Positions 1-11,336 of a stretch of 64,000 bases of DNA are shown here, one piece after another. A program made the position numbers and the translations under genes. The notes beneath the pieces are model-generated. The model was given only the letters and a program-made list of their open reading frames with translations. It made no database searches and was not told the origin of the DNA. How positions within the stretch are numbered: position 1 is the stretch's first letter; every line of letters starts with the position of its first letter. Source of the stretch: Alphaproteobacteria bacterium (GTDB lineage: Bacteria > Pseudomonadota > Alphaproteobacteria > SHNJ01); NCBI GenBank assembly GCA_004295055.1, contig SHNJ01000006.1:1-64000 (forward strand), in the 5' to 3' direction.

Positions 1-2300
1 TTTTTATTTTTTTTAATCGCTTCCCAAATAGGTTTCTTACAAGAGCCACAATAGAAAAGTTGAATAGTGGTTTCACACGAAAGAATAAATTCTTCGGCTT
101 CCTCTTTAGTAACTGGCTTGCCATGACTTCCTCTATTTGCCCAAGCCACTAAGAGATTTCTTGTATCCTCCCACTCAGGCTTAACAGCTCCAAGAGGCTC
201 GTATTTATCGCCTTGCCTTATTTGATAAGATGTAGATTTACTTATTATTTTATCTAAAAAAGGAGAGGCGGTTCTCATGTCATTTTTTTCCCCTTTTAAA
301 AAAGGCATTTCTAGATATATTTTCTCAGCCACAATTGGCATAAAAATATCCATATGCGATCGTGCGCGATTGATAGCAATTTCGGGATTTGTATTTAAGT
401 ATTCTTTTGCTTCCGCTATTAAACTTCCGGTCTGTGACCATGTAATTCCTTGTTCTGGCGATTGCCAAGGCATTAAATATTTAAATTCCCAATTTCCGCC
501 CTGTAACAAAGTTCTTAACTCCGTATACCATTCTCTGTCATGAGTAAAAATTAAGACTTGTCTATCGCTAAATTCTTCTTGTAGAAGCTTATGTATTTGA
601 CTTCTGTGATCACGGTCAAAGCTTATAACAACATCGTCAAGTACGATAGGCTTGTCGGCTTCTTTCCCTTGGTTAGCCAAAGCCAGAAAAATACAGAGTG
701 CTAAACTATTTCTATGGCCCTCGGAGAGCGTCAGTCTGGGCGAATCCTGTTTTTTGCCATAGAATTCTAGAGCTATATCTATACCCTTTATATTTTCTGG
801 CGGGATATATAATTTGATTTCTTTAATGGGTTTGTTGGGATGTAATAGTTCCCAATATTTCTGAATATCCGAGCTAATAGCGCTAATTCGGTCGTTAGTT
901 AGATTTTTTATATGATTTCTTATTTCCTGTTCAACAGCGATTAGGAAATTATGTGTATCAACGTAGTTATTTTTTATTGCAACTAGTTTATTCAGTTCAA
1001 TTCTAGATAGAGCTATTTTAGCAATATGTATGTCAGCAGAAAGTTTGGCTGCTTGAGGCGGCGCATCCTCGGCTTTCTTTTTGAGGACGTTATATACGAT
1101 TTTAAGATTGTTCTCTAAATACGCTAACTGCTCTTCTGTTATTTCTTTTTGCAATTCTTCTAGATTGTAATTCTTGATAGTAGCAATAATCGCTTTAATA
1201 TTTTCTTGAGAGGGGGCATTTAACCAATCTGATAAAATCGGCGCTGAAATTTCTTTTATTAAATTTTCCAGATTTTTGGCGAGCGTGGACAATATTTTAC
1301 GTTTCTGATTTAAGATAGAAAGAGCCAGCTCTAATCTCTTAATTTCTTTCCCAACTTGGTTTTTATATTCTTCGGTTGGTATTTCTTTGCCACAAGATGG
1401 GCATTCAATTTGCTCTAGACCACTAATCTTTTGAGCATATGTAGACGAGGATTGCAGAATTGAAAGCCTATCCTCAATGAAGGAGCCAAGATTTCCTAAT
1501 ACTGAGAAATCTATCTTCTTATAATCATCGACCGTTTGCAAATTACTCGTTTGGTATGCAGCTATGAATGCGGAATGTTCCTTTATAGAATTATTTGAAT
1601 TTTCTAACTTGGCCTCTAAATCGTCATTTAATTTTTGAGCAGCCTCTAATAGGTTTGTGGCTGTATAATCCGGGTAGCCATAATTCTTTATTAAGTTAAT
1701 AATATCATCCAATATTCCTTGGTCGTCTTTATCACCGAATATTTTTCTCCATTCATCTTCTACAAGGTTAATTTTCTGTGTTGTGCTGCTATTGTTAAAA
1801 TTTTTCTCAATAATTTTGGATATACCTTTTATATTCTCTGCGGCAATTTCTAGGAATTCCAGCCCTAACAAGGGCAGTAAAGTGTTATATTTTTCTGTCT
1901 TAGTTGAATTTATAAAATTGCTTAGATTGTTATGACGCAATACAATTCTATGTGTATCCCATTCCTCCACCCTTAGATTTTTCTCGTCATCTTTCTGAGC
2001 TGAGCCATTATCAGCAATTTGATACTGTACATAGCTATTGCTAAATGTAAGTTTAATAATAGCCTTTTTATCGGCGGGTTTTTTGGTGTTTATGAGGGCT
2101 TTTTCTTGTTTCGTGCCACTATATTCATTGCACAAATGATCCACTCTTCCTTCTTCTAAGCAATATTCAATTGCATCCACGAATGTAGACTTTCCAGAAC
2201 CATTATTTCCGTAGATAACTACTGACTTTTGTCGGGTCTCTAGGGATATTCGCTCTGCTGATCCCCTAAACCATTCCAAGCTTAAATTACTAATTCTCAT
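1..2300 (-). CDS. Rad50/SMC-like zinc-hook AAA ATPase, partial (C-terminus beyond window)
   Basis: An open frame runs without a stop from ATG at 2300 to the window edge, giving at least 766 residues. Seen: Walker A GNNGSGKST at residues 31-39; a long charged coiled-coil-like stretch interrupted by a CPSC zinc-hook motif at about residues 300-303; an ABC-type signature LTLSEGH near 523-529; a Walker B ending LDD near 554-556 with an SFD D-loop; and an H-loop histidine near 587. This order (ATPase half, coiled coil, zinc hook, coiled coil, ATPase half) is that of Rad50/SbcC and RloC-like proteins. About 180 residues follow the ATPase core, carrying NRGSHGK and a second CGSC pair close to the edge; I do not recognise this domain and it is not obviously the PrrC/RloC nuclease. 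Last gene of the AT-rich operon next to tRNA-Arg. ATPase fold sure; role (DNA repair or phage defence) inferred. Confidence 0.85.
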   Translation of the reverse strand, partial: MRISNLSLEWFRGSAERISLETRQKSVVIYGNNGSGKSTFVDAIEYCLEEGRVDHLCNEYSGTKQEKALINTKKPADKKAIIKLTFSNSYVQYQIADNGSAQKDDEKNLRVEEWDTHRIVLRHNNLSNFINSTKTEKYNTLLPLLGLEFLEIAAENIKGISKIIEKNFNNSSTTQKINLVEDEWRKIFGDKDDQGILDDIINLIKNYGYPDYTATNLLEAAQKLNDDLEAKLENSNNSIKEHSAFIAAYQTSNLQTVDDYKKIDFSVLGNLGSFIEDRLSILQSSSTYAQKISGLEQIECPSCGKEIPTEEYKNQVGKEIKRLELALSILNQKRKILSTLAKNLENLIKEISAPILSDWLNAPSQENIKAIIATIKNYNLEELQKEITEEQLAYLENNLKIVYNVLKKKAEDAPPQAAKLSADIHIAKIALSRIELNKLVAIKNNYVDTHNFLIAVEQEIRNHIKNLTNDRISAISSDIQKYWELLHPNKPIKEIKLYIPPENIKGIDIALEFYGKKQDSPRLTLSEGHRNSLALCIFLALANQGKEADKPIVLDDVVISFDRDHRSQIHKLLQEEFSDRQVLIFTHDREWYTELRTLLQGGNWEFKYLMPWQSPEQGITWSQTGSLIAEAKEYLNTNPEIAINRARSHMDIFMPIVAEKIYLEMPFLKGEKNDMRTASPFLDKIISKSTSYQIRQGDKYEPLGAVKPEWEDTRNLLVAWANRGSHGKPVTKEEAEEFILSCETTIQLFYCGSCKKPIWEAIKKNK

Positions 2301-2315
2301 AACGATCTCATTAAA

Positions 2316-2522
2316 TTATATTTTTAATATTTGAGATGCGAGACTTTGCAAGTCTCTGGGAGACAGGTTTTCCTTGCATAATTTTTCTTTAATTAAAGAG
2401 CTAATCAAAGGAGCCAAGTCTGTATTTTTTAGTTGAGAGTTTGCCACCGCATTCCTTATGCAATCTTCAATCCAGTTTGAAACAGGTAGATGCACAATTT
2501 TTGTGCTTTTCTCGGTCGTCAT
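2316..2522 (-). CDS. small unknown protein, 68 aa
   Basis: A 68-residue frame lies between the helix-turn-helix gene (6 bases upstream) and the zinc-hook ATPase (15 bases downstream), so it is probably co-transcribed and translated with both. The product is largely helical by composition, with charged and leucine-rich stretches, no signal peptide and no membrane segment. I recognise no family. Its size and position, directly before a large ATPase, would suit a small partner or regulator, but that is inference only. Tight spacing on both sides and the same AT-rich composition as its neighbours support it being real. Confidence 0.6.
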   Translation of the reverse strand: MTTEKSTKIVHLPVSNWIEDCIRNAVANSQLKNTDLAPLISSLIKEKLCKENLSPRDLQSLASQILKI

Positions 2523-2527
2523 TTGAA

Positions 2528-3274
2528 TTACTCCGAAGTATTCCTCTTTTTATTGCTCTGCGCCCATTTATTTAATTCCGCGATTTTATAGCGGATAGCC
2601 TTTTTTAATTTCACATATTCAGGTCCGTCGCCTTTGTAGCGCATTCCTTGTAATGTCCGATGCGAAATTCCAAGAAATTCGGCAGCGTCTTTTTCGTTAA
2701 TGTGTAAATCGGGATTCTTAAAATCGGGTTTTTTAGGTTTTTCTAATTTTTTGGATTTATTTAATGGCAGGATATTATTTTTGAATTTTTCTGGGTTATT
2801 GGATTTTCCCGTATTTTCTATATATTCCGGCTGGATATCGATAATTGGATTTATATCCTGTAATAACCGGATTCCTTCAAATTCCAATTTTTTATTTTTT
2901 AATTCAGACTTCTCCCAATCAATTTCACCATTTAAAAATAAATCCGGCGGAATTTTAAAGGGTTTATCGGTCATACGGCGCGGGGATTGGTAGCCATACG
3001 GAATTAAATCACCCCGTTTAATTTGGTCAGTAATATCAGCCCTAATAGCTGATAAAGCATTTTTATGGGATTGCAGGGTGGGGACTATTCCACCAATAAG
3101 CGCATTTAAACCGTTTAAAAGCTCCTGGGCATTATTAGCGGGTTTGATTTTTCCAGGATTAATATTATTTGCGGCCTTATATTTTTGAATTAATTGTGGC
3201 GCGGCGCATTGAAAGCAGGCTTCATTTAATGAAAGTCCGTTTAGAAAAGCATTTTCTGATATTTCGGCCAGCAT
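2528..3274 (-). CDS. helix-turn-helix protein (MerR/AlpA-like C-terminal domain)
   Basis: 248 residues. The C-terminal 60 residues (about 188-245) hold a helix-turn-helix of the HTH_17/AlpA excisionase type: INEKDAAEFLGISHRTLQGM, followed by the wing-like YKGDGPEYVKLKKAIRY and an ELNKWAQ end. The central part (about 88-135) has an IPYGYQSPRR...IPPDLF...IDWEKSEL segment that I associate with HTH proteins of plasmids and islands, linked to the HTH by a lysine- and proline-rich stretch. The ATG overlaps the stop of the preceding gene (TAATG), implying translational coupling. Such proteins usually bind DNA to regulate an element or its excision; the role here is inferred. Confidence 0.75.
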   Translation of the reverse strand: MLAEISENAFLNGLSLNEACFQCAAPQLIQKYKAANNINPGKIKPANNAQELLNGLNALIGGIVPTLQSHKNALSAIRADITDQIKRGDLIPYGYQSPRRMTDKPFKIPPDLFLNGEIDWEKSELKNKKLEFEGIRLLQDINPIIDIQPEYIENTGKSNNPEKFKNNILPLNKSKKLEKPKKPDFKNPDLHINEKDAAEFLGISHRTLQGMRYKGDGPEYVKLKKAIRYKIAELNKWAQSNKKRNTSE

Positions 3275-3630
3275 TAATTTTCAAAAAAATCCTTGCTTGA
3301 TAATACGGACCAAGACAAAGATTTAAGCGGCTTTAAAGGCTTGAGAGCTCGTAACCCCTTTAATGGCATTAATCGCCTTAATGATTTAAGTGGAGATAAT
3401 TGTTTGGTCGGGCGGCTGGGGCCAGATTTGGAATGCTCGGTCATAAACGCGGCTTGGCCTTTTTGATCATAAATCCAGCCATTGTCGAGCCATCCAAGAT
3501 GTTTTCCGGTAAAGGAATAAATAGAATCTTCGTAAATTACAGCAACTGGTTCCCCCGAAAATAAAAAGATGTGCTCATCATCTTCGGTATATGCCAATGC
3601 TTGTCCGGCGGAATTGTAAAATGTTGTCAT
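3274..3630 (-). CDS. 4-fold beta flower protein
   Basis: 118 residues from ATG at 3630, chosen over an in-frame ATG at 3681 because AGGAGAAGGG lies just upstream of 3630. The N-terminal 65 residues repeat a short beta motif four times (FYNSAGQALAY, IFLFSGEPVAVI, IYSFTGKHLGWL, WIYDQKGQAAF), which matches the family called 4-fold beta flower protein. The C-terminal part is a low-complexity tail of Pro-Leu-Lys repeats (PLKSL, PLKGL, PLKPLKSL). The molecular function of this family is not known to me. First gene of the AT-rich operon; its stop overlaps the start of the HTH gene. Confidence 0.75.
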   Translation of the reverse strand: MTTFYNSAGQALAYTEDDEHIFLFSGEPVAVIYEDSIYSFTGKHLGWLDNGWIYDQKGQAAFMTEHSKSGPSRPTKQLSPLKSLRRLMPLKGLRALKPLKPLKSLSWSVLSSKDFFEN

Positions 3631-3795
3631 TAACCCTTCTCCTGTATTTAAAATTATTGAGCAAAAATTCGAGATTTTCAACCCCGATATGCACTAATTA
3701 TTATCGACCTAAGGGAGAAGAATCGCGAGGGTACTTATTGGTAACTCTGGATTTTTTCGGATTTCGGCGGATTTGCAAAAAACCCTTGTAAAATA

Positions 3796-3872
3796 TGGCG
3801 CACCCGTGAGGATTCGAACCTCAAACCTTCTGATCCGTAGTCAGATGCTCTATCCAGTTGAGCTACGGGTGC
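3796..3872 (-). tRNA. tRNA-Arg (anticodon ACG)
   Basis: The reverse strand folds as a complete cloverleaf. The acceptor stem GCACCCG pairs with CGGGTGC, the D arm contains AGCTCAACTGGATAGAGC, the anticodon loop is CTACGGA with anticodon ACG, the T loop is GGTTCGAATCC, and CCA is encoded at the 3' end (3796-3798). ACG is read as ICG after deamination and decodes CGN arginine codons. Confidence 0.97.
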
Positions 3873-3945
3873 AATCCTGTCTTGCCACCCAATCACTTGT
3901 CCTGCGAAGCCCAACGGGCGAAGCGGGAAGCTACGGGTGCAATCC
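3861..3945. repeat. 17-base direct repeat of the tRNA-Arg 5' end with a palindrome between copies
   Basis: The 17 bases agctacgggtgcaatcc occur at 3861-3877, where they include the first 12 bases of tRNA-Arg, and again at 3929-3945 outside the gene. Between them lies a short imperfect palindrome, cctgcgaagccc with gggcgaagcggg. The arrangement could come from insertion of a small palindromic element with target duplication, or from a slipped duplication. Confidence 0.7.
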
Positions 3946-10767: not shown

Positions 10768-10905
10768 ATGCCAAAAAGAACATATCAGCCCAGCAAACTG
10801 GTGCGCAAACGCCGTCATGGTTTTCGTAAACGCATGGAAACCGTTGGTGGCCGTAAAGTATTGTCCGGTCGCCGCAAAAAAGGCCGCAAAACATTAAGCG
10901 CGTAA
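10768..10905 (+). CDS. rpmH: 50S ribosomal protein L34
   Basis: 45 residues, very basic, beginning [20 protein letters not shown] and ending KGRKTLSA: the complete L34 sequence, a component of the large ribosomal subunit. ATG preceded by a GGTAGGGAG ribosome site. It heads the conserved rpmH-rnpA-yidD-yidC cluster. Confidence 0.98.
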
Positions 10906-10967
10906 ATTCGCCTTAATAGGATGAGATATCATTGCAGGACCTGTTCCTGCAATTTTATTTAGGGCTC

Positions 10968-11336
10968 ATGAAAAAATCCGCCGCTTTAGCCATTAAACCT
11001 TGGACCAGCCTTCGGAAGAATGGCGAGTTTCAGGCGATTTATAAATCGGGATCGCGGTTTTTCACCAAGAATCTGGGTATTTTTGCTAAAGAACATACGC
11101 CTGATTCGCCGCCGCGGTTGGGTTATGTCGCCAGCGCCGCCAAGGTCGGTAACGCGGTTAAGCGCAATCGCGCCAAACGCCGTCTGCGCGCCCTGGCCAG
11201 AAAATGCCTTACCAATTGCGCCCCGTCCACGCATGATTATGTATTGGTGGCCACCAATTCCACAAATGCCTGCGATTTCGATGTGCTGGAAAAAGATTTA
11301 CAGACGGCGTTGCGCCGCTTAAAACTTAGTGTCTAG
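10968..11336 (+). CDS. rnpA: ribonuclease P protein component
   Basis: 122 residues from ATG 10968. An upstream in-frame start at 10932 would add 12 unconserved residues. The protein binds RNase P RNA and helps it mature tRNA 5' ends. The RNR signature [16 protein letters not shown] is at residues 59-74, and [18 protein letters not shown] at 14-31 is the usual N-terminal segment. 62 bases after rpmH. Confidence 0.96.

Follow-up and report, generated by a model that had tools for sequence, protein, structure and literature searches.

A conserved small-gene and Rad50-like ATPase pair on an alphaproteobacterial tRNA-Arg island: a putative anti-phage unit with a likely HEPN domain

As reported, RloC carries the triad Arg-x3-Glu-x36-52-His, often with a Ser before the His, and each mutation of the triad abolishes its tRNase activity; Rad50 and SbcC lack this C-terminal region (PMC2610378). 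PrrC acts within PrrI as a suicide back-up to restriction, and the canonical motif of HEPN domains is Rx4-6H (PMC3710099). Among other ATPase-based defences, the Walker B motif of LmuB from Lamassu is Asp-Gln (PMC10586767), and AriA from PARIS belongs to the OLD family of ATPases and is paired with a TOPRIM nuclease (PMC12839542). In this study, we analyzed a stretch of 64,000 nucleotides (the window), the first 64 kb of contig C6 (SHNJ01000006.1) of an alphaproteobacterial genome, which begins with a minus-strand operon encoding a 68-residue protein and a Rad50/SMC-like ATPase. We propose, with a probability of roughly 0.55, that the core of this operon is a two-gene anti-phage unit consisting of a small helical partner and a Rad50/RloC-like ATPase with a built-in HEPN ribonuclease.

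The four open reading frames (ORFs) of the operon lie on the minus strand, each meeting or almost meeting the next, as an earlier note on this DNA had described. The ATPase gene runs off the contig as well as the window and is completed from contig C17 of the same genome.

1..2300, minus strand: Rad50/SMC-like ATPase with C-terminal HEPN-like domain and zinc ribbon (from the ORF, Pfam and the contig overlap)
Contig C17 (L009 18454-18633): last 18 codons of the ATPase, giving a full protein of 780 residues
2316..2522, minus strand: 68-residue partner protein, three helices predicted at low confidence; position conserved across relatives
2528..3274, minus strand: 248-residue protein with a C-terminal HTH_17 (AlpA/excisionase-like) domain (Pfam)
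3274..3630, minus strand: 4-fold beta flower protein (Pfam Bflower), ATG start, AGGAG upstream

Pfam matches support these assignments (Bflower, E 4e-35; HTH_17, E 2e-9; SMC_N/AAA_23 on the ATPase). Moreover, a gene for an Mrr-like nuclease begins only 21 nucleotides past the ATPase stop, so the operon may comprise five genes.

The conserved unit is the small ORF with the ATPase, not the four genes together. In 18 of 21 relatives, an upstream ORF of 55-80 codons (products of 53-79 residues) abuts or runs into the ATPase start, compared with 3 of 56 control ATPases, which were other SMC-like ATPases from the same genome scan (Fisher p 9e-12, descriptive only, as clade membership of the loci was set after the alignments had been seen). 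In plasmid relatives, a gene of 58-78 codons overlaps the ATPase start, usually by 4 bases, and a separately annotated small protein stands at that position in 14 of the 15 listed. The genome scan found the pair in Acidobacteriota, Bathyarchaeota, Desulfobacterota, Bacteroidota, Melainabacteria, Chloroflexota and Alphaproteobacteria; overall, its range extends from Alphaproteobacteria to haloarchaea, and it is carried on plasmids and integrated islands. The small proteins of clade 1b are homologous among themselves (28-49% identity to that of L065), and the 68-residue protein of the window is their counterpart by position only. A phylum profile search matched 198 of 398 genomes; almost all of these matches were short ones to generic ATPase heads, and the search yields no prevalence figure. 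Phage records gave no match, and viral contigs contained only distant ATPases.

The earlier note had regarded the combination of all four genes as the unit of interest. Of that combination, the small ORF and the ATPase recur in other genomes, whereas no homologue of the beta flower or HTH_17 protein stands beside the ATPase at the other loci examined, and the four-gene unit was rejected on this ground. Bflower homologues elsewhere are rare or lie among unrelated genes. AlpA-like proteins with an HTH_17 domain are common on islands. Because of this, and of their absence beside the ATPase elsewhere, both genes are probably island genes outside the conserved unit.

The heads, hook and H-loop of the ATPase are Rad50/SMC-like, and all the motifs that had been listed for it earlier (Walker A, hook, signature, Walker B, H-loop, NRGSHGK and CGSC) are present, the H-loop being TH.

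2184..2210, minus strand: Walker A GNNGSGKST, residues 31-39 (from the translation; conserved in relatives)
1392..1403, minus strand: zinc hook CPSC, residues 300-303 (C-P-x-C invariant in the alignment of relatives)
714..728, minus strand: ABC signature LSEGH, residues 525-529
633..647, minus strand: Walker B IVLDD, residues 552-556 (Asp-Asp, neither Asp-Glu nor Asp-Gln)

Past the H-loop, a domain of about 155 residues is followed by a zinc ribbon.

66..527, minus strand: HEPN-like helical domain, residues 592-745
360..362, minus strand: Arg647, first residue of the R-x3-E/D...H triad and an invariant R of the C-terminal alignment (Asp651 at 348-350)
123..137, minus strand: N722-R-G-S-H726, the N-x-x-S-H motif, with the invariant H of the C-terminal alignment
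39..50, minus strand: CGSC, first half of the zinc ribbon, residues 751-754 (second half, CNC, on C17)

When ten C-terminal domains were aligned (14-33% identity to that of the window), only eight columns proved invariant, namely W, N, R, N, R, H, C and C; these include both motif residues, R and H, and two Cys. Those clade-1 and haloarchaeal proteins that matched the pattern read R-x3-E/D-x63-83-N-x-x-[STV]-H at this motif. Homology of clade 2 to the window clade extends over the length of the protein (hhalign E 3e-42, 726 columns), and the alignment brings the motif regions of the two together. RNx4H, which falls within the canonical HEPN motif, occurs in all nine clade-2 proteins examined and in L221, whereas the window clade has only the RloC-like variant. 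In Foldseek comparisons of the predicted C-terminal model, the functionally named matches with a probability of at least 0.6 were all HEPN proteins (the HEPN-MNT toxins 5yep and 7bxo, Csm6 and the archaeal HEPN protein 1wol); the others at this level were 2q00/2jpu, an unnamed Sulfolobus protein. Collectively, the RloC-type motif, the RNx4H of clade 2 and these HEPN-named matches, despite their weak E-values, indicate that the C-terminal domain is likely, though not proven, to be HEPN. The C terminus that the earlier note could not assign thus reads as a HEPN-like motif and predicted fold (NRGSHGK) with half of a zinc ribbon (CGSC), and its suggestion of a Rad50-like ATPase with an extra, RloC-like effector domain gains support from the same motif and fold prediction.

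Compared with RloC and PrrC, the ATPase shares a Rad50-like head, a coiled-coil CxxC zinc hook (CPSC), a C-terminal R-x3-E/D...S-H motif and a link to restriction systems. In contrast, the window clade has a longer spacing in the triad (R-x3-D-x74-H in the window and x63-83 in relatives, against the x36-52 of RloC), an extra zinc ribbon and a small partner gene; the window protein has Asp in place of Glu, and its C terminus lacks a profile-level match to AAA_13. Neither Pfam nor NCBIfam has a family for the small protein or the C-terminal region, PADLOC has none for the small protein, and a sequence search of the PDB with the C-terminal profile gave no match.

Several observations weigh against the proposed two-gene ribonuclease unit. 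Besides the longer spacing, the Glu of the triad is replaced by Asp in both the window ATPase and its closest complete relative, L063, which makes RNase activity in these two copies no more than a possibility. The predicted C-terminal model is of moderate quality (predicted local distance difference test score, pLDDT, 74.7), and no Foldseek match reached an E-value of 0.001, the best being 0.16. No Pfam HEPN family scored over its cut-off for the C-terminal region (best DUF4145, E 0.013), and hhalign of the C-terminal profile against a single RloC-type protein returned no match. As for the partner, hmmsearch between the 68-residue protein and the clade small proteins gave E-values of 1.6 to 4.3, like those of unrelated window ORFs, and hhalign against the small proteins of relatives gave a probability of 0.8%; its predicted fold is of low confidence and without a useful structural match. 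Finally, the join of C17 and C6 is deduced from their overlap and the symmetry of the attachment repeats.

The neighbors of the pair were read at individual loci that matched our searches. On the plasmid pHTIA of Halorhabdus tiamatea (L220 1027-9670), the small gene and the ATPase lie inside a BREX-5 operon, with pglX on one side and pglZ on the other. In Halobacterium noricense, the pair adjoins DUF499 and DUF1156 genes, and loci centered on DUF499 have been described as BREX-related (PMC12839542). At separate loci, other relatives stand near a restriction endonuclease, an N6 methylase, HipA with DUF262, or DarT with TIR, and further relatives stand near an RloC-type AAA_13 protein or a type III Res; some copies, such as L223 and L014, have no obvious defense neighbor. 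The defense role offered in the earlier note as an inference draws all its support from this context of BREX-5, restriction-modification and other defense neighbors, and from the island that the pair shares with restriction genes. This arrangement is similar to that of PARIS and other modules embedded in BREX, where an ATPase and its partner lie in or beside BREX or restriction-modification loci and may act as a back-up when restriction is blocked. The components differ, as the window ATPase is Rad50-like with a HEPN-like domain, whereas AriA is of the OLD family with a TOPRIM partner. The literature searched, a partial coverage, gave no description of the small-ORF/ATPase pair, and the pair, found in none of the catalogues searched, is probably an uncatalogued phage-defense system.

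Based on these features, a mechanism can be proposed. Two ATPases would pair through their zinc hooks, and the nucleotide-binding heads, with the small partner, would respond to DNA ends, to some other signal of infection or to a breakdown of the restriction system of the island; a dimer that senses DNA or its ends is what the Rad50-like heads and hook suggest. The heads might then change and release the C-terminal HEPN-type ribonuclease, RNA cleavage being suggested by the HEPN-like domain. Through its R...D/E...H residues, this nuclease would cleave an RNA that the cell needs, and the infected cell would stop translating; the analogy with RloC and PrrC makes tRNA the most likely target. The zinc ribbon could hold nucleic acid, and the small protein might keep the complex inactive or couple it to the trigger. 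The embedding in restriction loci, like that of PrrC in PrrI, suggests a back-up suicide response. RNase activity, the tRNA target, the trigger and what the small protein does are all inferred here.

The strongest rival, which we nevertheless consider unlikely, is a Lamassu/ABC-3C-like system, in which the ATPase would act as sensor, the small protein as middle component and a separately encoded nuclease (GIY-YIG or Mrr) as effector, with the C-terminal domain merely binding nucleic acid or a partner. The order of a small gene followed by an SMC-like ATPase is indeed shared with Lamassu. LmuB is the best PADLOC match of the window ATPase (E 1e-26 and 92 bits over residues 1-613, read without the PADLOC threshold), and all nine relatives compared match an LmuB model. 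Moreover, a GIY-YIG-like protein of 150-181 residues is encoded directly upstream of the small gene in eight relatives (L042, L064, L065, L066, L068, L070, L110 and L177; Pfam matches below threshold, E 0.0003 to 0.03). In this order, a putative effector precedes the small protein and the ATPase, and in the window the closely following Mrr gene could take the effector role. In L070 and L177, the GIY-YIG-like gene is itself preceded by a small protein that we take, from our reading of its sequence, to be KTSC-like (without a Pfam match at 1e-5 in L177). Together, these loci show a version of the module with three to four genes. However, no LmuA was recognized, the Mrr-like neighbor matching Mrr_cat of Pfam instead, and none of the small proteins tested with PADLOC matched LmuC. 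The Walker B motif is an Asp-Asp that is invariant across the aligned relatives, whereas that of LmuB is Asp-Gln, and the HEPN-like domain and zinc ribbon lie beyond the end of the LmuB model PDLC03859. Furthermore, the R...H motif persists in L063 and in many plasmid copies where no nuclease gene adjoins the pair.

Still less probable is a DNA-end-processing or repair ATPase of the SbcC/Rad50 kind that would aid the persistence of a mobile element without being a defense effector. Rad50-like heads, the zinc hook and carriage on plasmids and integrated islands would suit such a function, but the operon has no Mre11/SbcD partner, and both the C-terminal R...H motif with its zinc ribbon and the locations inside BREX-5 and beside restriction-modification genes argue against it. 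Finally, an ordinary RloC anticodon nuclease whose upstream ORF is there by chance, although consistent with the hook, the Rad50-like heads and the R-x3-E/D...SH motif, is very improbable given the small-ORF position conserved far beyond controls, the zinc ribbon, the longer triad spacing and an AAA_13 match that covers only part of the window ATPase, where a true AAA_13 neighbor scores 3e-135.

To the left, the sequence continues on C17: when the same genome was searched at the protein level, ATPase residues 722-765 turned up again at the very end of this contig. The last 138 bp of C17 correspond to the first 138 of the window, with an exact run of 126 and mismatches at positions 5, 9, 11 and 12. 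Window bases 1-12 are probably an assembly-end error, and the C17 version was taken as correct because the completed C terminus, ending CGSC...CNCGTIRWKI, matches relatives such as L063 (RCDCGKVRWKIE). From this overlap and the symmetry of the attachment (att) repeats, we infer that the two contigs are adjacent.

3796..3872, minus strand: intact tRNA-Arg(ACG), the integration site
3796..3844, minus strand: att repeat of 49 bp, identical to C17:110187-110235 (L009 10188-10236)
3733..3747: 15-bp word ACTTATTGGTAACTC, also just upstream of the integrase gene (L009 10356-10370), a possible integrase arm site

The segment is AT-rich up to the tRNA, as noted earlier (GC about 0.35 before 3796-3872 and about 0.50 beyond). 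The second copy of the 3' part of tRNA-Arg is perfect over 49 bp and lies at the opposite end of the island on C17. Between the att copies, 12,104 bp (37.8% GC, with flanks at 46-50%) hold an integrase, an HNH protein, type III Mod and Res, the Mrr-like nuclease and the minus-strand operon; Mod matches MTase_III of PADLOC (E 2e-140), and the Mrr-like protein matches Mrr_cat (E 1e-24). With both an integrase and a duplicated tRNA 3' end found on C17, the island anticipated in the earlier note is borne out, and this 12.1-kb segment is an integrated defense island at tRNA-Arg.

Further observations concern the integration site. A partial copy of the tRNA-Arg 3' end, 18-19 bp long, lies 125 bp left of the att repeat on C17 (L009 10063-10080) and is possibly a remnant of another integration, and 17 bp of the tRNA-Arg 5' end (AGCTACGGGTGCAATCC) recur at window 3929-3945, 68 bp away from the complete tRNA gene. 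In the sister genome G001, the final 28 bases of contig C174 (L181 3277-3304) are identical to window 3845-3872, and the contig stops exactly where the 49-bp repeat begins, as if the site were also repeated or occupied there. An empty site in G001 is not demonstrable, as the contig ends at the repeat and the left-flank gene is missing from this 57%-complete assembly. A Pelagimonas relative (L071) has a tRNA-Arg(ACG) about 500 bp away (10894-10970), the same type of site as in the window. Three more HTH_17-type proteins on C6, at 68373, 87749 and 103587, possibly mark other mobile elements.

Taken more broadly, the pair could represent a widespread unnamed system of bacteria and archaea that combines a small helical protein, a Rad50-like ATPase, a HEPN RNase and a zinc ribbon, and that also joins GIY-YIG, BREX-5 and DUF499 loci as a back-up suicide module; we hold this wider view tentatively, at somewhat less than even odds. 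If the two-gene reading is true, it would join the ATPase-ribonucleases of the RloC/PrrC kind and the small-protein/SMC-ATPase order of Lamassu in one compact unit, which would span Alphaproteobacteria to haloarchaea and sit inside BREX. Two genes, two catalytic residues and one zinc ribbon would then offer a test set for how Rad50-like ATPases turn infection into RNA cleavage.

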